Of a stretch of DNA of 64,000 nucleotides, positions 3,091 to 62,163 are shown one piece after another (the stretch's first letter is position 1; the number at the start of each line of letters is the position of its first letter). Source of the DNA: Tricholoma matsutake (taxonomy: Eukaryota; Basidiomycota; Agaricomycetes; Agaricales; Tricholomataceae); assembly GCA_026075535.2 (NCBI GenBank), contig AP026543.1:620001-684000 (forward strand), written 5' to 3'. The notes beneath the pieces were generated by a model that was given only the letters and a program-made list of their open reading frames with translations, did no database searches and was not told the DNA's origin. Position numbers and translations under genes: made by a program.

Positions 3091-3811
3091 ATGCCTCGAC
3101 TTCCAGGCGAGAAAATATTATGTTTGTCCCCTCTGTGAAATTTTGGTAAGGCCGGAATTTCATCCCCTCATACACCATTCTCGCAATGCGACGTGGAGCA
3201 TTCGGATTACATTTAAAGAATTGGGCGATCGCGTTATGTGCTCGCTTACAATTCTCTTCAGGCTCCCACAAATTATTTTCGTCGGTATAGTTTTTCCACT
3301 TTATTAAGAACTCCAATTTGTTCCGTTGAAGACGTGAGTCTAGAATTTCTTCAACTATGTATTCTGGAGCACCTTCTACTATTATCGGAGGTTGTGGAGT
3401 AGTTTGTTGGCCAGGAATAGTGGGCGGATGGTAAGGGCGTAAGCGGGATACGTTAATCTCGGGATCAATCTTAAATGATCGGGGTAATTTTAGCACTACC
3501 ACATTAGGCGAGATCACTTTAGAGATCGCATATGGGCCAACTTGTTTCTCCGTAAGTTTCTTTGAAGGTCGTGGAATATTCAGGTCCTTGGTACTTAGCC
3601 ATACCAAGTCACCAACTTTGTACTCTGGAGCGCGTGTTCGAGTACAATCCACGTGTCGCATCATGTCATCACGTGCTTTCTTCAATGCCGCCTCTGCTTC
3701 CTCTTGTACCCTTTGCATCTTAGATACAAAATCTTCTACTGACTGTACTTTGACTTCCCTTCTGGGTTCTACTCCCATGCGAGGATGATATCCATAGCAA
3801 TTGCCAACCAT
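3089..3811 (-). pseudogene. Gypsy A pol tail: integrase C-terminus and chromodomain
   Basis: This frame encodes the end of the integrase followed by a chromodomain (EYIVEEILDSRLQRNKLEFL, then IKWKNYTDENNLWEP), which in chromoviruses guides integration to particular chromatin. It overlaps the end of the upstream pol frame (3,769) in another register. At the join, EWLAIA runs straight into YGYHPRMG. The segment normally between these blocks in Gypsy integrases (about 25 residues) is missing, so a deletion with frameshift broke the gene. The rest is open to a natural stop close to the polypurine tract. Confidence 0.88.
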
Positions 3812-9475: not shown

Positions 9476-12400
9476 GACACCTGCAATAGGACCTCTTAGA
9501 AAACATATCACCTGACTATCTGAATCACATGTATGTTGGCTTAAGCATGTAGATTATCAGCGGCATTGATACATTCAGAATCTAATCAAGATACATTGTA
9601 TTCAAGTTCGAGTCCTTCCAAGTACGCTGACTCATTCTCTGCCTCTTGTGGTTTCCAATGTCCTGGCCAACTTGCCCAATCTGATTGAAGATTGGTTTCA
9701 AGACACCCGCCATTTTTGGATGAATGCCTCTGTCCCCCTCTATCACCCCCATTATGTCCAAGAAGCTTTGCTTTAGATGTTGTTGTTCTGCTTCTGAAAA
9801 GAAAATCTGTCTACAATTCAGTACATAATAAGAACAGGTGTCCAAATATGCTCACATGCTCCTCAGACTCATCCTTGACTTCCAAAGACTCTGAGCTGTC
9901 ATCTTGAACACTCCCCTGAGGTGCTGGTCCTTGGTCCCCTTCTGTATTTTTCACCTCACGGTCTTCACCCATGTCTACCTCAACCATTGTGCTGCCATTT
10001 TCCTCCTCAATTTCTGTATCAAATCATCTGCATCAGGGCTCGAACTTGAATGTCTGTTGGATTTGCTCAATTCTGAATGCATCAGATCATGTCCCAAGAC
10101 ACATATTGGTCCCTCTTTGTGTTCCTCCTCTGTAGCTTTGTCAAAATGGATGCCCTCAATCGAGTAATAGGGTGGGTAGCACTGTCGATGGAGATTTGCA
10201 AAGAAGGTCAGGCTTGTGATTGGCATGTTGTCCAGCACTTCATTTGCTTTCCTGACAAGATGTTTGCATGCACAGAAGGAACCAACTGATCAGATATGCA
10301 GGACAGCTGCATGTCCACCGATCAATTTCCATGAGATATTCACCACGAGGTTGACTTTCTTCCTCAGCAATCTCCGCCAGTCGTTTGTTACAGCCCTTCA
10401 TTTTTTTAGGTGCCTTCAACCACTTAAGCTCCTTCTTGACTAGGCAATACTCATCTGAATGGCTCATATCCACCCAGTCTGCATGAAAATTGGTTTGCCA
10501 CCCAGCTAAAGCTTTTGGCCTCCCAATGCACCTCAAGTTTTGAATGTAATCCAGCATCATACGACATGAGGCAGTACATCAGAAATGATGATATGTGTCA
10601 CAAGGTCAAGATGAGGTCAGTTAAATTCCTGTAAATCCAGATGTTTAAGGTTGTGCCATAGACTTTCAACAATCATTGTTGTTTTCAACTTTGAGATGGC
10701 CAGGTCAGTTGAACGAGCCCAAAGTTTCCATTGTTTTGGTGTATACCAGCAATTCCAGAGGTAGGCCCACACTTGTCCCAAGTCACATTAAAAACAGAAG
10801 TCGTATACATGTCCTTGGCTGCCCCATGGTATATCTCTTGGCTTGTCAGGCATGTTTTATTCTCATTGTTGAATGGAATTTGTGGATGCTGATGTAAGTG
10901 AATCCAGAATTTTTCTATGATTGTCACTCGGTGCTCCTTTGGGCAAAAAATAGGCAAGTCCCCTTTTGTGACCTTTGGAGGTGCTGGCCAGATGGGGATG
11001 TGTTTACCATCTGTGATGAGTATGAAAATGGGTGGATGACATGTTGCAGGTGGTTCCATTATCTGTAGTAACACATGTAAGTTTCTGTTCTGTTTTGCAC
11101 TTGTGTTGGACTTATGGGCTCTTCATCCTCAGCATCCTCATCATTTGTAGGTTGTTCACACTCTGTGTTGTCTTCATGAACTCCCTCTTCAAGCCAACCA
11201 GATGTTACACCTGGTGCCCATGTCGGATCGATGAACCCAAGCTGTTGATGGGCTTTTCGGGGATCATATTTCGCAGGTGGCTTATCTTCAGCCAGGCATT
11301 CCTCAAGATACTTAATGGCATGCCAATAGCAGAGCTGACTTTTCGCATCAGGCCATACATCACAGATTGCGCTCAATTCAGTGGGATCTTTGTCGCTGTG
11401 TGCCACAGCAAGGTTAGGTGTGTACTTGTCAATGTGTTGGAGAATGTCTCGAAGCATTCGATCCTTTGCACCTGGCACAGCTATCCCATCTGTCGAACAT
11501 GTGAAGGCAAATGCAAGTGGAAGCACCTGTCCATTCGCTTCCCCAACAACCCCATATAACTCATATCCCATTGCGTTTGTTTTCCCTTTAGGTAACATCA
11601 GTTTAGTATAACCCACATCGAGTTACGAGGTACTGACAGGTTGAATCCATTGCAATTTCAGTAATTTCCTCCCCGTAGTTGCCCAGTATATCCTTGAATG
11701 AAAAGGCAAGTGATGAGATCCCATCTTCTTGTGGAATGGCAATTGTCTCAATGTTGATATCATCCACCCATTCCAGGACCTTCAGTGCAGACTTGACTTG
11801 ATCATTATCCAGTCACCAAGATGCCTCATGTAGATGAGCCCAGTGTGCATATACTTGTTTTTGTGTTAACTCTGTTTTTGGATTGTTTTTCATGATTGCC
11901 CGCCATATCTTGAGTAACCATGAGATCATTGCCCTCAAGGGTAGGCAGAATTTCACTGACCTTGACAGCAGGTAAGTCCTTCAACTTCTTGATCTCTTCT
12001 GCAATGTTATCTGAAATTGATATGTCCATGTAGGGATGGTGCCAGTGGTAGTGTGTGATACATACACAAACCGTGCTCAAGTCACTCTCATCGACTGTTA
12101 CATGCAACCAACCATCACATTGGTACCGATCCATTGTCATACATGCACGCTGCTTTCTTGTGTCATCAGTCAGTTGATGCTTTGTTTGTTTGCCCTTGAG
12201 CTGTGCACAGTAGAAAGTGTACATTGTGATTCTGTTGCATGTCTTGCTTACTTGTTTTTTCTTATAGCTGTTTCATTTCAGGTAAGTTTGATTGGCAAGA
12301 ATCTATTCAATTGAATGCAACAAACTTGAATCTGAACCCTGTTAAATCCCAGGCTGTCTTTGCAATATGTGTGGCAATGCCATGGCCAGGTTGCTCAGAC

Positions 12401-12912
12401 TGCTCGGGCGCTGTAGTGGCATCATCCTCGAGCATAACAAATGCATGAAACTCAAATGCGCTGTCTTTGTTTTCTGTAAGAAGTTGATTGAAGACGCTCC
12501 ATGCAAATGTTGGTGGGCCGCCAAGTGTCTTATCCTTTCCTAATCCCCGTTGCTTCTTCTTCAAAAGATTTTCATTTTCCTTAGTGCCTCGCTTCTTCCC
12601 AGCTGATTCGTTTTGCTTTGTATTGCAGGTGGCACATGTTTTCAAATATTGGAGGTTGGGTTTATGGGGAAAATCAGTTTGTGCACCACAAAATGAGCAC
12701 CGCAAGCACTTAATGAGGTCTGCCATGAGTGGAGGAGATTATGGAGCTAGTAATTTACAATATCTATCTACATGTTTCTACTGGAGTCCACCAGATGAAC
12801 AATGGGCCTCTTGATGCACTGGGCCAGATATCGACAGAGATAAGATTAGTGTCCATGCAAGTGATATAATATTTCATGTGATATGTTTTCTAAGGGGTCC
12901 TATTGCCCAAAA
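9476..12912 (-). mobile_element. Mutator-like element (MULE), left copy
   Basis: A 29-bp terminal inverted repeat with one mismatch is at 9,483-9,511 (GCAATAGGACCTCTTAGAAA then ACATATCAC) and 12,878-12,906. The outermost 6-7 bases do not pair. The flanking 10-bp TSD CCACTGGAAT supports the boundaries. The element is about 3.4 kb and carries a minus-strand transposase pseudogene. The right-arm copy (37,767-41,203) shares its frameshifts, so it died before the arms were duplicated. Confidence 0.88.
9582..12726 (-). pseudogene. MULE transposase, left copy (pseudogene)
   Basis: Fragments in order from 12,726 downward: N-terminal zinc-binding region with paired cysteines (LRCSFCGAQ, CATCNTKQ); a FAR1/WRKY-GCM1-like block (FYCAQLKGKQTKHQLTD, YQCDGWLHVTVDESD); the MULE core (GYELYGVVGEANGQ, LCYWHAIKYLEECLAE); the C-terminal domain (GRPKALAGWQTNFHADW); a SWIM finger (WTCSCPAYLI...CKHL); and an acidic tail. 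A spliced intron is implied inside the core. At least three frameshifts break it, around 10,240, 10,560 and 10,790, all shared with the right copy. Differences from that copy are few (for example HQLTD against HKLTN). SWIM plus MULE domains make the assignment firm. Confidence 0.9.
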
Positions 12913-37766: not shown

Positions 37767-40700
37767 TTTTGGGCAATAGGACCCCTTAGAAAACATATCA
37801 CATGAAATATTATATCACTTGCATGGACACTAATCTTATCTCTGTCGATATCTGGCCCAGTGCATCAAGAGGCCCATTGTTCATCTGGTGGACTCCAGTA
37901 GAAACATGTAGATAGATATTGTAAATTACTAGCTCCATAATCTCCTCCACTCATGGCAGACCTCATTAAGTGCTTGCGGTGCTCATTTTGTGGTGCACAA
38001 ACTGATTTTCCCCATAAACCCAACCTCCAATATTTGAAAACATGTGCCACCTGCAATACAAAGCAAAACGAATCAGCTGGGAAGAAGCGAGGCACTAAGG
38101 AAAATGAAAATCTTTTGAAGAAGAAGCAACGGGGATTAGGAAAGGATAAGACACTTGGCGGCCCACCAACATTTGCATGGAGCGTCTTCAATCAACTTCT
38201 TACAGAAAACAAAGACAGCGCATTTGAGTTTCATGCATTTGTTATGCTCGAGGATGATGCCACTACAGCGCCCGAGCAGTCTGAGCAACCTGGCCATGGC
38301 ATTGCCACACATATTGCAAAGACAGCCTGGGATTTAACAGGGTTCAGATTCAAGTTTGTTGCATTCAATTGAATAGATTCTTGCCAATCAAACTTACCTG
38401 AAATGAAACAGCTATAAGAAAAAACAAGTAAGCAAGACATGCAACAGAATCACAATGTACACTTTCTACTGTGCACAGCTCAAGGGCAAACAAACAAAGC
38501 ATAAACTGACCAATGACACAAGAAAGCAGCGTGCATGTATGACAATGGATCGGTACCAATGTGATGGTTGGTTGCATGTAACAGTTGATGAGAGTGACTT
38601 GAGCACGGTTTGTGTATGTATCACACACTACCGCTGGCACCATCCCTACATGGACGTATCAATTTCAGATAACATTGCAGAAGAGATCGAGAAGTTGAAG
38701 GACTTACCTGCTGTCAAGGTCAGTGAAATTCTGCCTACCCTTGAGGGCAATGATCTCATGGTTACTCAAGATATGGTGGGCAATTGTGAAAAACAATCCA
38801 AAAACAGAGTTAACACAAAAACAAGTATATGCACACTGGGCTCATCTACATGAGGCATATTGGTGACTGGATAATGATCAAGTCAAGTCTGCACTGAAGG
38901 TCCTGGAACGGGTGGATGATATCAACATTGAGACAATTGCCATTCCACAAGAAGATGGGATCTCATCACTTGCCTTTTCATTCAAGGATATACTGGGTGA
39001 CTACGGGGAGGAAATTACTGAAATTGCAATGGATTCAACCTGTCAGTACCTCATAACTTGATGTGGGTTATACTAAACTGATGTTACCTAAAGGGAAAAC
39101 AAACGCAATGGGATATGAGTTATATGGGGTTGTTGGGGAAGCGAATGGACAGGTGCTTCCACTTGCATTTGCCTTCACATGTTTGACAGATGGGATAGCT
39201 GTGCCAGGTGCAAAGGATCGAATGCTTCGAGACATTCTCCAACACATTGACAAGTACACACCTAACCTTGCTGTGGCACACAGCAACAAAGATCCCACTG
39301 AATTGAGCACAATCTGCAATGTATGGCCTGATGCAAAAAGTCAGCTCTGCTATTGGCATGCCATTAAGTATCTTGAGGAATGCCTGGCTGAAGATAAGCC
39401 ACCTGCGAAATATGATCCCCGAAAAACCCATCAACAGCTTGGGTTCATCGATCCGACATGGGCACCAGGTGTAACATCTGGTTGGCTTGAAGAGGGAGTT
39501 CATGAAGACAACACAGAGTGTGAACAACCTACAAATGATGAGGATGCTGAGGATGAAGAGCCCATAAGTCCAACACAAGTGCAAAACAGAACAGAAACTT
39601 ACATGTGTTACTACAGATAATGGAACCACCTGCAACATGTCATCCACCCATTTTCATACTCATCACAGATGGTAAACACATCCCCATCTGGCCAGCACCT
39701 CCAAAGGTCACAAAAGGGGACTTGCCTATTTTTTGCCCAAAGGAGCACCGAGTGACAATCATAGAAAAATTCTGGATTCACTTACATCAGCATCCACAAA
39801 TTCCATTCAACGATGAGAATAAAACATGCCTGACAAGCCAAGAGATATACCATGGGGCAGCCAAGGACATGTATACGACTTCTGTTTTTAATGTGACTTG
39901 GGACAAGTGTGGGCCTACCTCTGGAATTGCTGGTATACACCAAAACAATGGAAACTTTGGGCTCATTCAACTGACCCGGCCATCTCAAAGTTGAAAACAA
40001 CAATGATTGTTGAAAGTCTATGGCACAACCTTAAACATCAGGATTTACAGGAATTTAACCGACCTCATCTTGACCTTGTGACACATATCATCATTTCTGA
40101 TGTACTGCCTCATGTCGTATGATGCTGGATTACATTCAAAACTTGAGGCGCATTGGGAGGCCAAAAGCTTTAGCTGGGTGGCAAACCAATTTTCATGCAG
40201 ACTGGGTGGATATGAGCCATTCAGATGAGTATTGCCTAGTCAAGAAGGAGCTTAAGTGGTTGAAGGCACCTAAAAAAATGAAGGGCTGTAACAAACGACT
40301 GGCGGAGATTGCTGAGGAAGAAAGTCAACCTTGTGGTGAATATCTCATGGAAATCGATCAGTGGACATGCAGCTGTCCTGCATATCTGATCAGTTGGTTC
40401 CTTCTGTGCATGCAAACATCTTGTCAGGAAAGCAAATGAAGTGCTGGACAACATGCCAATCACAAGCCTGACCTTCTTTGCAAATCTCCATCGACAGTGC
40501 TACCCACCCTATTACTCGATTGAGGGCATCCATTTTGACAAAGCTACAGAGGAGGAACACAAAGAGGGACCAATATGTGTCTTGGGACATGATCTGATGC
40601 ATTCAGAATTGAGCAAATCCAACAGACATTCAAGTTCGAGCCCTGATGCAGATGATTTGATACAGAAATTGAGGAGGAAAATGGCAGCACAATGGTTGAG

Positions 40701-41203
40701 GTAGACATGGGTGAAGACCGTGAGGTGAAAAATACAGAAGGGGACCAAGGACCAGCACCTCAGGGGAGTGTTCAAGATGACAGCTCAGAGTCTTTGGAAG
40801 TCAAGGATGAGTCTGAGGAGCATGTGAGTGTATTTGGACACCTGTTCTTATTATGTACTGAATTGTAGACAGATTTTCTTTTCAGAAGCAGAACAACAAC
40901 ATCTAAAGCAAAGCTTCTTGGACATAATGGGGGTGATAGAGGGGGACAGAGGCATTCATCCAAAAATGGCGGGTGTCTTGAAACCAATCTTCAATCAGAT
41001 TGGGCAAGTTGGCCAGGACATTGGAAACCACAAGAGGCAGAGAATGAGTCAGCGTACTTGGAAGGACTCGAACTTGAATACAATGTATCTTGATTAGATT
41101 CTGAATGTATCAATGCCGCTGATAATCTACATGCTTAAGCCAACATACATGTGATTCAGATAGTCAGGTGATATGTTTTCTAAGAGGTCCTATTGCAGGT
41201 GTC
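37767..41203 (+). mobile_element. Mutator-like element (MULE), right copy
   Basis: 29-bp TIRs at 37,773-37,801 and 41,168-41,196, with TSD ATTCCAGTGG at 37,757-37,766 and 41,204-41,213 (the reverse complement of the left-arm TSD). Carries the + strand transposase pseudogene. Same structure as 9,476-12,912. Confidence 0.88.
37953..41097 (+). pseudogene. MULE transposase, right copy (pseudogene)
   Basis: Same domain order as the left copy: cysteine pairs (LRCSFCGAQ, CATCNTKQ); YQCDGWLHVTVDESD; MULE core GYELYGVVGEANGQ and LCYWHAIKYLEECLAE; QVWAYLWNCWYTPKQWKLWA; GRPKALAGWQTNFHADW; SWIM finger TCSCPAY...CKHL; YYSIEGIHF; acidic tail. An intron at 39,042-39,093 (52 bp) splits MDST-W-KTNAMGYELY. 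A second of about 41 bp probably lies before 39,620. Shared frameshifts occur near 39,890, 40,120 and 40,410, plus a stop at 38,370. Here the segment after 39,890 is an open frame in the shifted register (39,898-40,122). Once active, it would have bound TIRs and moved the element by cut and paste. Confidence 0.9.
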
Positions 41204-58203: not shown

Positions 58204-58483
58204 GATAAAATTGAGCTCTTTACACTCCCTCACCTAATCCATGTGGAATCCAAGCTGTCCACTCAGACTGTACTAGGAATTGTTTTGGCAAAATTTCCAG
58301 CCAAATTTCCATTCCAAGTCTGAGTTTGGTCCAAGCTCAGTCTGAGTGGAATCCTAATAGAGAGCTAGGACTCGGAATTGCAAGTCAGCTCCACACTGAA
58401 TTACATGGAAATGCTAGGACAAGTATGAGCAGTCCAAGCAGTCCAAGCTCAACTTAGCATTAAATAAAATATTGTTCTGACCC

Positions 58484-58547
58484 AGAGTTGAACCTTTGAC
58501 TATGGAAGGGATAAATGCACATGCTAAACCACTAGACCACAGAGGCC
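58484..58547 (-). ncRNA. tRNA-like module 1 (A and B boxes)
   Basis: On the minus strand, TGGTCTAGTGG (58,539-58,529) and GGTTCAACTCT (58,494-58,484) fit RNA polymerase III A and B boxes at tRNA-like spacing. The acceptor ends do not pair, so it is not a functional tRNA. It resembles a SINE head. Confidence 0.55.
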
Positions 58548-59565
58548 TAGTGAGGTAGGTACATAGATTTCCTACAAGCTATTTCTAGTGGCTGTGCCAT
58601 GACAAATGCATGCACAGGCCACATCATCACTGCCAATCCACACCACCACACCACCACCACCATTCCCAACACCATGGCCTCCCACCACTGCCAACCACCT
58701 CCCACCACCATCAACAGCCACAAACACCACTCCCATGCCCATCCATCAACAACAAACAATGAACCATGTGGCTGCAAGAGTGCCACATCACATGCAGGTT
58801 TGGATGTTGACAGCCATTGACATGTGTTGAGGGGTAATGTAAACTAAGTATTTTTATTGTTGTTTTTGTTGTTTTTGATGCTTTTTTCTGTTATTTTTAG
58901 GTTATCTACTACTTTTACAATGACAATGCATGATGCATGCCCACCCCCTCCTCCCCATCCAAATGGGATGTCAGGGGGTCATTTGGGGTTAAGAGACCCC
59001 AGGGAGGCGCCAGAAGGTTGAGGAAGTGGGGTACCCACAAAGTAAGCACATGAAATGCCCCCAATGCTGCCACCTGCTACTAACCACCCCACCACCTCTC
59101 AAAACAGGAAATGCCACCTCAACAGTGGTGGGAGGGTGCAGCAAGACCCACCACCAGTGATGCAACCCCCCCAATCACCACAACCACAGCCATGGCAATT
59201 AAATGAAGGAACTGGGACCAAGAGGGGATGATGACCACAGGGGGGCAACACTGACACCAATGCAGGTGGCGGACCACAAAAGAGGGGGCAACAGTGGCAA
59301 CAGGACCACCAACACCAGTGGGGGGCCTGGACAGCAAATGGCGATGGTGAGGACACAAGCAGGACAACAAAGACCACAGGAAGAACCAGGAGGACCAGGC
59401 AAGTAAATGGGACACCCCAACACCAACAACAAGGAACCAAGGATGACACCATGAGGACAAAAACAGCAGGGCCAATGCCAATGCAAGTGAGGACAGCACC
59501 AACAATGGGGGGAATGGGGAACAGCACCACCAGCATGCCAATGATGACACAACAACCACAGGAGG

Positions 59566-59628
59566 CAATGACAGGCACATGGAGACAATGACAGGCACAT
59601 GGAGACAATGACAGGCACATGGAGACAA
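59566..59628 (+). repeat. 20-bp minisatellite inside the MULE-like element
   Basis: The unit caatgacaggcacatggaga is repeated about 3.2 times with near-perfect identity. It creates long open frames on both strands that encode nothing recognisable. Confidence 0.85.
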
Positions 59629-60170
59629 GGACGAGGATGAAAAAAACACCAAATGACACCAGGACAGGGAGCACAAGGACAATGAGGGCCAGACAGCAAG
59701 GATGATGAAAGTGAGGACAACAACACAACGATGGACCACTGCCAACAGAGACAACCCCAAAACCATGAACCAACAATGTCAGGGAGGACAAAAGCATGGG
59801 GAATGACGAGAATGACAGCAGGAGCAACGGGAGCAGTGGCAGCAATGGCCAGGGACAAGGGACAAAAATGCAGCACAAGGAAGTGGCCACTAACAGTGAT
59901 AGAGGAGAATGGAAGCCAACAACAGGGACAGGTGCAGGGATGACCATGATCATGAGGGGACATGCAAGGACAAAGGGGAGATGCCACACTGCTGGCTCAC
60001 TAAGTGAGGCAGCAGCCTTTTTTACATTTAGTAGCTGCCCCCTCTACAATAGGGGGGGCTTTTCTTATTTTTTGTGCACTGTTGCTCATTTCAAGTGAAG
60101 GTGATTTTTTTCTTGTTGTAGATCATTTGTAAATAGGTAATAAATAAAATTAATCATAAGAAATACCACT

Positions 60171-60245
60171 GCCCCTGTGGTGGAGTGGTATAATTGTCTT
60201 TAGTAATTTGTTTGTAACCTGAGGTCATGGGTTGAAATCCTGTGT
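60171..60245 (+). ncRNA. tRNA-like module 2 (A and B boxes)
   Basis: TGGTGGAGTGG (60,178-60,188) and GGTTGAAATCC (60,230-60,240) on the plus strand, opposite in orientation to module 1, so both face outward to the element ends. Acceptor pairing is poor. SINE-like. Confidence 0.55.
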
Positions 60246-60513
60246 TAGCTGTAATCTCTTATGTGGCCTTTGTCAAATTTACTAAGTCCACACCTGGCTT
60301 GGACTGTACTCAGACTCAATTTGGATTTCACTCAGAAAATACTTGGAAAATTACTCAGAACAAAATTCTGCTGGGACTAGTTAGCTGGTCCAAGCTGTCC
60401 ATTCAGACAATTTGGACTTTGCTCAGACTCAACTAGGATTCCACATGGATTCCTAGCATTCCATGCAGATGGCTTGGACTCTGCTTGGACCAGGTGGGGG
60501 AGTGTAAATTACA

Positions 60514-62163
60514 GATAAGATTCCAGACCTTGAACCCAGGAAGTGCAAGCATAAACGGAATGAGATAGAAAAGGATGTGGATATAAATGAACCACAAAAG
60601 ACACATGGAATTTGTACAGAATATTGATACCTTCAAAATCCCTTTACAGAAAAGGAAGAAGATGAAGAAGAAACCTTCCTATCATTTGAAGAAATATATG
60701 CAATAATTGCCAGAGATGAACTTACCAGCCTCAAGGATGCTAAGAACTCCTCAGAGTGGTCAGAATGGCAAATCACCATGCAGGAAGAGTTGGATTTGCT
60801 GAAGGAGATGGGCACTTGGGAACTTGTGCAGAAACCTCCAAACACAGTCCCTATCTCTCCAATAAATGGGTCTTTGTAAAGAAAAGAATTAACCAGGGGG
60901 ATGAAATAAGGAAATGAGTGTGACTGGTAGTGAAAGGATGCACACAGCAGCCAAGTTATGATTATATGGAAATCTATTTGCCTGTGGTTAGGATGTATAA
61001 ATTGCATGCAATTCTAGCCCTAGTACCAATAAAGAAACTCCAACTCCAACAGATGGATGTCAAGGGGGCTTACCTGAACAGCATTTTACAAGAAGAAATT
61101 TATATGCGAGAACCTGATGGATGCAAGGATGAAATGGACCAAGTCTGTCAGCTGGTCAAGACTCTCTATGGAGAAACAGGCTGGGAGAGAGTGGAATAAA
61201 CAACTTGATGAAAAACTCAAGTCACATGGCTACAAATGCTTACTCACAGATTCTTGTGTGTACATTAGATGGGATGGATGGCTATCTGGGTTGACGACTC
61301 ACTTCTCTTTGCATTGTTGGATGCAATGCTGGAACATATGAAGAACATGTTATGGTCAGAATGGCAAGTTATGGACCTTGGGGAACCTAGCAAGATTGTT
61401 GGTATGAAAATAAATCATACCAGCAATTCCATGACTATTCCTCAACAGAAATAGATTGAGAATACACTCATGGAGGGGATGGCCAATGCAAACCCTGTCA
61501 GTATACATATGGATCCAAATATTAAGCTAGGACTGAATCTGGATCACAATGAACCCAACTGAAGTAATTCATATGTAAAATTATTGGGAAGTCTACAGTT
61601 TATTGCAAATGCCACAAGGCCAGATATCTCATATGCATAAATAAATTGGCTGCATATACTGCTAACCCAGGTCTCCAACACCATGGTGCATCAAAGCAGA
61701 TACTCAGGTACCTTGCAGGTATGAAAACTCTTGGGATAACTTACCACACATCTCAGGATGCGACTGGGGAACATAACCTCTTCTATATGGGTATGCAAAT
61801 GCTACCTTTTTGAATGCAGACAACCACAAGTCCACAAAGGGATACATTTCCCTAACAGTACAGTGACTTGAAAACCAAAGAAACAAATGATCATAGCCTT
61901 GTCACCTACAGAGGCAGAATATGTAGCTCTCTCAGAAGCAACATGGCTCAGAATTCTATATGGCAAACTCGAATTTATTCAAGGGGATCTGACCATTATT
62001 TATGGTGACAATGAGGGGTCTGTAGTATTAACACAAACCCACAATTTCATTAATGGTCAAAGCACATCGCTCTTCACCATCACTGGGTCAGGGACCTCAC
62101 GAATGAAAAAGTTCTTGATATACAGAACTGTTGAGATCCAGAGCAAATGGCAGATGTATTAAC
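60514..62163 (+). pseudogene. Copia B pol: reverse transcriptase and RNase H
   Basis: Continues after the insertion: DKIPDLEPRKCKHKRNEIEK, EWSEWQITMQEELDLLKEMG, TWELVQKPPN, LQQMDVKGAYLNSILQEEIY, MREPDGCKDEMDQVCQLVKT, WVDDSLLFALLDAMLEHMKN (catalytic VDD), QVMDLGEPSKIVGMKI, and RNase H (ALSPTEAEYVALSEAT, IIYGDNEGSVVLTQ). The segment around 61,190 joins ETG to WERVE and appears shortened. There are many stops and frameshifts. With the 57,718-58,203 part it forms one decayed Copia, unrelated at sequence level to Copia A's LTRs. Confidence 0.88.

Follow-up and report, generated by a model that had tools for sequence, protein, structure and literature searches.

Putative outward-facing Pol III-type modules at the ends of a non-autonomous TIR element family in Tricholoma matsutake

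In mobile DNA, Pol III promoters are known mainly from SINEs and from a few LTR elements; for instance, the Cassandra-type TRIM elements carry a 5S promoter in their LTR. In DNA transposons, it is unusual for both ends to carry an outward Pol III-type unit, and to our knowledge this is not a trait of MULEs. In the open-licence literature, as far as titles and the first lines of abstracts indicate, we found no TIR element described as having a Pol III unit at each end, although this is a weak negative. Among fungi, tRNA-related SINEs have been reported from Aspergillus fumigatus (PMC5063351), and the inverted boundary elements of fission yeast, which border silenced domains, are described as recruiting TFIIIC through their B boxes and helping to stop silencing (PMC4502379). 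The genome of T. matsutake itself is given as more than 70% repeats (PMC10627285).

The element described here resembles each of these systems in part. Like tRNA-derived SINEs, it has a tRNA-like head with A and B boxes, but it also has inverted ends, a single target-site duplication (TSD) around the whole element, a run of at least four T (T4+) behind the head and two different heads. It shares a Pol III-type unit in both terminal repeats, and a small non-autonomous build, with the Cassandra-type TRIMs and with a TRIM-like element of the same genome (L104, see below); however, the repeats of the latter two are direct and of LTR type, whereas here they are inverted, with the units in opposite directions and a 9-bp TSD. 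As in the fission yeast boundary elements, B boxes lie in inverted flanking elements, but those are described as fixed, bordering one domain and not mobile, and their clustered B boxes as not recruiting Pol III (PMC4502379).

The window, that is, the whole 64-kb stretch of DNA that was analysed (G000:C6:620001-684000), is part of a 13-contig genome totalling 161,040,721 bases. Boxes were scored with the patterns TRGYNNARN(N)GG and GGTTCRANNCC, 32-75 nt apart, the maximum score being 17. The features of the element, in window positions, are the following:

58204..58212, no strand: left target-site duplication, GATAAAATT, the 9-bp target being backed by uninterrupted Copia copies
58213..60513, plus strand: non-autonomous TIR element of 2,301 bp, with termini common to its relatives
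58219..58255, plus strand: left inverted terminal core, opening with TTTACACTCCC, 37 nt pairing with the right core
58466..58469, minus strand: left T4 run, starting 25 nt after the B-box start
58484..58494, minus strand: left B box, GGTTCAACTCT, placed by box score
58529..58539, minus strand: left A box, TGGTCTAGTGG, reading toward the left terminus, placed by box score
60178..60188, plus strand: right A box, TGGTGGAGTGG, reading toward the right terminus, placed by box score
60230..60240, plus strand: right B box, GGTTGAAATCC, with one invariant base changed
60472..60508, plus strand: right inverted terminal core, closing with GGGAGTGTAAA, 37 nt pairing with the left core
60514..60522, no strand: right target-site duplication, GATAAGATT, the 9-bp target being backed by uninterrupted Copia copies

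The original prediction of a TIR insertion with matched terminal cores and a 9-bp TSD is confirmed at this locus. The two TSD copies agree in eight of nine letters and the cores are 81% complementary over their 37 nt; the inverted similarity of the ends as a whole is incomplete, the alignable sequence consisting of the terminal part, of subterminal repeats and of a stretch of 22 nt in the head. The Copia target was assessed by searching the left and the right flank each alone in the genome. Among the matches listed, each flank gave 41, and an undivided 9-bp target is implied in three Copia copies, on C4 (overlap 2804395-2804403), C6 (5341500-5341508) and C9 (10466479-10466486, where the right-flank query aligned from base 2). 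In eight further copies the flank matches overlap by 7, which agrees with a 9-bp target because the left match ends 2 bases early. A TSD of 8 bp was also entertained, since the right flanks read begin with G and some left flanks do not, and it was rejected at this locus on the basis of the uninterrupted copies. With common termini, a TSD, empty sites and no coding capacity (by eye, the ORFs in element copies are low-complexity or part of inserts), this is a non-autonomous TIR DNA transposon.

Three relatives have extra sequence of about 0.7, 0.4 and 6.4 kb near one interior point (window 58820-58836), which would reflect either an insertion hotspot or a deletion in the window copy:

G000 C8:1675557-1676231: relative with extra interior sequence
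G000 C13:8512827-8513204: relative with extra interior sequence
G000 C8:537299-543674: relative with extra interior sequence

Genome matches number at least 42 for the left end, at least 41 for the right end and at least 54 for the interior. When 20 end pairs were inspected, 18 were spaced at 1.3-3.6 kb and two at 8.3 kb. A TSD with eight or nine of nine letters in register at the termini is present in ten of the 20 and one with seven letters in pairs a and n, while none was seen in pairs e, j, k, l and s; pairs m, q and r, whose left terminus is misplaced or outside the retrieved sequence, were left out of this judgement. As flanks are common to c/d and n/o on both sides, and to a/i on the left only, the members of these sets are not independent insertions. 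The typical termini of the family are GAGGTCTTTACACTCCCCCACCT and AGGTGGGGGAGTGTAAATTACA, and the 18-nt terminal core occurs, with at most two mismatches, at 3,238 genome sites (1,618 + 1,620), the control pattern, read backwards, giving 42 (23 + 19). A degenerate core pattern gave 640 genome places. There is also a second family, in which GAGTAC replaces GAGGTC at the terminus: eight places picked from the first 100 terminal-core places listed (L071-L078) carry nine ends, eight of them of this kind and the remaining one a right end. A complete second-family element lies in L079 (127-2194) and a second-family right end in L080. Another type of right terminus, CCAGGGGGAGGGTAAATTACTG or similar, is found behind the same right module in L022, L028 and L034, and much farther from it in L036. 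Additionally, L103 (G000:C1:10551048-10551562) is a deletion form of 515 bp that has retained both termini but, of the modules, only the right one.

The proposal that the element is MULE-like draws its support from the TSD length. Its TSD of about 9 bp, its inverted ends and its internal deletion forms are those of MULEs and their non-autonomous derivatives, but a MULE transposase was not found in or near the element, and its inverted ends differ from those of the four MULE-domain elements compared (two retrieved and two in the window, of 60 MULE-domain places). The retrieved ones, L081 and L082, have other inverted ends of 42 nt and lack the terminal core within five mismatches, and those of the two window MULEs, again different, are 33 nt long. 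These two (9483-12906 and 37773-41196) have matching ends beginning with GCAATAGGACC, lie in opposite directions and contain MULE-domain matches at 11311-11583 on the minus strand and 39096-39368 on the plus strand. Among the matches listed, neither MULE nor KDZ domains lie inside paired elements, no full-length autonomous member was found, and none of the many places returned by the two domain searches is linked to the family termini. KDZ domains are very abundant in this genome (at least 165 matches in the best 150 of 831 candidates), and by domain search fungal KDZ transposons are, like the present family, abundant DNA transposons in matsutake. However, a KDZ element would have its transposase inside and a TSD of 7-8 bp (8 bp in Zisupton and Dileera and 7 bp in Kyakuja, without TIR, as given in PMC12730594), whereas the TSD here is of 9 bp. 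Four end pairs about 8 kb apart were considered as a source of an autonomous partner and rejected, as by eye they look like interrupted copies: the family matches break around a long insert, and two of the four contain ORFs similar to LTR-retrotransposon proteins. For one such insert, seven ORF pieces were compared with Pfam, and none had a match above the cut-off.

An outward A/B-box module had been predicted at each end of the window element, and it is found there: only two A/B pairs in the 64-kb window, both strands included, score at least 16 of 17, and they are exactly the two outward modules (five pairs reach 15 and 43 reach 14). For the element alone, its two pairs at 15 or above were equalled or exceeded in 3% of 200 shuffles. 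In the left unit the boxes and the T-run are intact. The right unit has the changed B box GGTTGAAATCC and no T4 run behind it; the window copy is an old, partly decayed one.

Across the family, 18 elements were scanned, namely the L079 element and 17 of the 20 end pairs; b and e were omitted for their long inserts and q because its left end was not retrieved. Both outward modules, at a score of at least 14, are present in 14 of the 18, those of c and d lying about 550 nt from the left end, but n, o and s have the right module only and p the left one only. In the second family, outward modules occur at both ends of the L079 element and at the right end in L080. When 52 ends with set termini (28 right and 24 left) were compared with 1,040 shuffled ends, the best sense A/B pair reached 15 in 41 real and 19 shuffled ends, and 16 in 26 and none, respectively, while an antisense pair of at least 15 was present in none of the 52. 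The threshold of 14 is a weaker test (47 of 52 real ends vs 155 of 1,040 shuffled ones).

Behind the boxes, 42 of the 47 ends with a pair of at least 14 have a T4+ run within 16-46 nt of the B-box start, beginning at 25-28 nt. The first such run comes at 26-28 nt in 24 of 25 right ends and at 25-26 nt in 18 of 22 left ends, and the control, 30-nt windows farther downstream, has one in 17 of 980 cases. For comparison, the tRNA-Ile gene of L104 has its T4 at B+24. This layout recurs behind several different heads and in the second family, with A box, B box and T-run in the order and spacing of a type-2 Pol III gene. Judged from sequence, each end is laid out like a whole tRNA-gene-like Pol III unit whose transcript would stop inside the element, and the data support such an outward module at each end as a trait of this TIR family. 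Beyond the unit, 8 sense T4+ runs were counted where letter frequencies predict 48.9, and 49 A4+ runs where they predict 38.8. As the copies are related, the scarcity of downstream T4 runs is no more than a hint of a possible role for read-through as well. In budding yeast, terminators of 5-6 U are described as weak, with read-through common (PMC4937561); T4 runs may be leaky in fungi.

The best explanation, in our opinion, is that the Pol III units at both ends are bound by TFIIIC and keep the ends open for a transposase, and we would give it an even chance of being right. Each subterminal region, with its A box, B box and T4-5 run over about 80-100 nt, would be transcribed in the direction of the terminus closest to it, with the stop still within the element. 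General Pol III biology leads one to expect binding and transcription at such units, and TFIIIC, TFIIIB and Pol III would be the factors that bind here. Less surely, the benefit would be local: TFIIIC-bound ends may be nucleosome-poor and resistant to silencing, and open ends would let a transposase, perhaps MULE-type to judge by the TSD length, reach both termini, a small RNA from the units being a possible by-product. The idea of a local benefit comes from the analogy with the B-box inverted repeats of fission yeast, from which we infer that, with TFIIIC and Pol III bound, the units may keep the termini open or insulate them. What the DNA letters themselves establish is the termini, the 9-bp TSD at the locus and, at both ends, units that face outward, keep a fixed geometry and recur with different heads. 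In favour of this explanation, the boxes lie far above the shuffles and point outward, and the layout is kept behind clearly different heads. Against it, the left-end boxes are not outstanding, tRNA models give no match, the possible leakiness of T4 runs and their scarcity downstream hint at read-through, and four of the 18 elements, as well as L103, have one module.

As for conservation, the A- and B-box windows of right ends come directly after two terminal windows (0.87, 0.86; mean 0.73); in left ends, the B box (0.82) ranks fifth and the A box (0.77) ninth (mean 0.68), no better than other subterminal windows. The left-end values are also what would be expected if the promoters were fossils, an ancestral tRNA-like sequence being carried unused at both ends and the common layout deriving from a few master copies, and the copies are indeed related and many of them decayed, including that of the window. 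Nevertheless, we consider this unlikely, as right-end boxes outlast their surroundings and the layout, T-run included, is kept behind the strongly differing heads of ends and families.

The layout was also searched for as such, in 181,472 bases of stretches picked by similarity to ends, as an A/B pair of at least 15 followed by T4 at B+24-28. Of the 52 places that fit, 39 are followed by the terminal core at a distance of 187-486 nt (median 263), two are near the end of a stretch and 11 have no such core; in one of the 52 it lies upstream. The core was found at 3 of 16 places with an A/B pair of at least 15 and no T-run, and at 293 of 3,280 random positions. This enrichment is partly built in, because of how the stretches were picked, which does not affect the direction or the new heads; counts from such stretches are not those of a random genome sample, nor are the copies independent. 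Seven of the 52 places, lying away from known ends, were read individually. Two of them (C2:791525 and C8:8673947), found by layout alone, have new heads and a GAGGTC-type terminus 250-260 nt on; two (C12:1437164 and C6:9898592) are module-like, with the terminal core not in view; and C2:13112215, its near copy C2:13686671 and C8:543267 have the appearance of chance. The fairly constant distance from B box to terminal core, with its median of 263 nt, could also mean that the conserved motifs are transposase binding sites that merely resemble A and B boxes, and subterminal binding sites are common in DNA transposons. We find this quite improbable, since order, strand, spacing and T-run jointly match a tRNA gene.

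The resemblance to tRNA genes has its limits. ARAGORN finds no tRNA at the window element, and Rfam gives none at E of at most 10 in it or in 16 related loci; homology of the head to tRNA by model was rejected on these results, and because of them the tRNA-likeness appears confined to the promoter layout, without a folded tRNA. By eye, some right ends keep a well-paired T arm and no acceptor stem was seen in the ends inspected, which fits the absence of tRNA matches. The heads, which had been expected to align with each other or with a tRNA, do the former over the 22-nt stretch but not the latter. Selection for a functional tRNA-like small RNA (e.g., a regulator of the host or of silencing), rather than for an effect on chromatin, would suit the defined start and stop layout; it seems highly improbable to us, as the subfamilies do not agree in their RNA heads and acceptor positions and an Rfam match is absent.

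It had also been suggested that captured SINEs became the ends, that is, two tRNA-derived SINEs in opposite orientation. The A and B boxes lie in a tRNA-like head, as in such SINEs, and the heads face outward at about SINE length from the terminus. However, a SINE would have a terminator-free transcript from its head to its 3′ end, whereas the T4+ run at 25-28 nt in 42 of 47 ends, directly behind the B box, would, provided that T4 is an effective terminator in this fungus, stop the transcript inside the element and keep it from the terminus, which argues against captured SINEs. Additionally, the TSD surrounds the whole element, the heads of the two ends differ, and all nine ends in L071-L078 extend beyond the head, similarity to the L079 element continuing past it for at least 100 nt in seven and for about 40 nt in L074 and L078. 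Stand-alone copies, also proposed, are not found among these nine ends of eight places, and the only candidate for a SINE-like unit is a lone right-type module, L022 (G000:C3:10889483-10889631), which starts with the tRNA-like head and terminates in GGGAGGGTAATTACTG. Its start at the head favours capture, but it is ambiguous: a recognisable left end or TSD was not found in the 3.1 kb examined, a TSD-like copy of its right flank was not seen near the head, and none of the nine other ends is such a lone unit. Capture of SINEs is therefore, in our judgement, very unlikely. 

Returning to TFIIIC-bound open ends, a broader proposal, which we make tentatively and with some doubt, is that of a class of DNA transposons dependent on host Pol III, in which outward TFIIIC/Pol III units would be selected in several families, while heads and termini change, as boundary or access elements that the transposon itself carries.

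A separate observation concerns L104 (G000:C1:7782640-7783240, minus strand), where a TGT...ACA repeat of about 226-228 bp is present twice in direct orientation, the two copies being 98.8% identical over the 169 bases aligned. Each copy contains a whole tRNA-Ile(UAU)-like gene, and they lie 68 bp apart, with AAGGGGG before the second. By its sequence, it seems to be a TRIM-like LTR element carrying a tRNA gene. Its repeat has at least 51 genome matches (in the best 40 of 250 candidates), including about ten pairs about 292 bp apart. In the sister species T. bakamatsutake, 275 of 277 tRNA-Ile genes are given as having the TAT anticodon (PMC10627285), and an element of the L104 type may explain this excess.

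If our explanation is true, tRNA-like promoters would have a second means of spreading, through a TIR group whose terminal core occurs at thousands of sites, and such units could account for tRNA-like false matches in fungal genomes. The family would also offer many natural replicates for testing the effect of TFIIIC sites on transposon ends, be it protection or opening, and, in a genome as rich in repeats as this one, the outward units may help to keep the ends of the element open.
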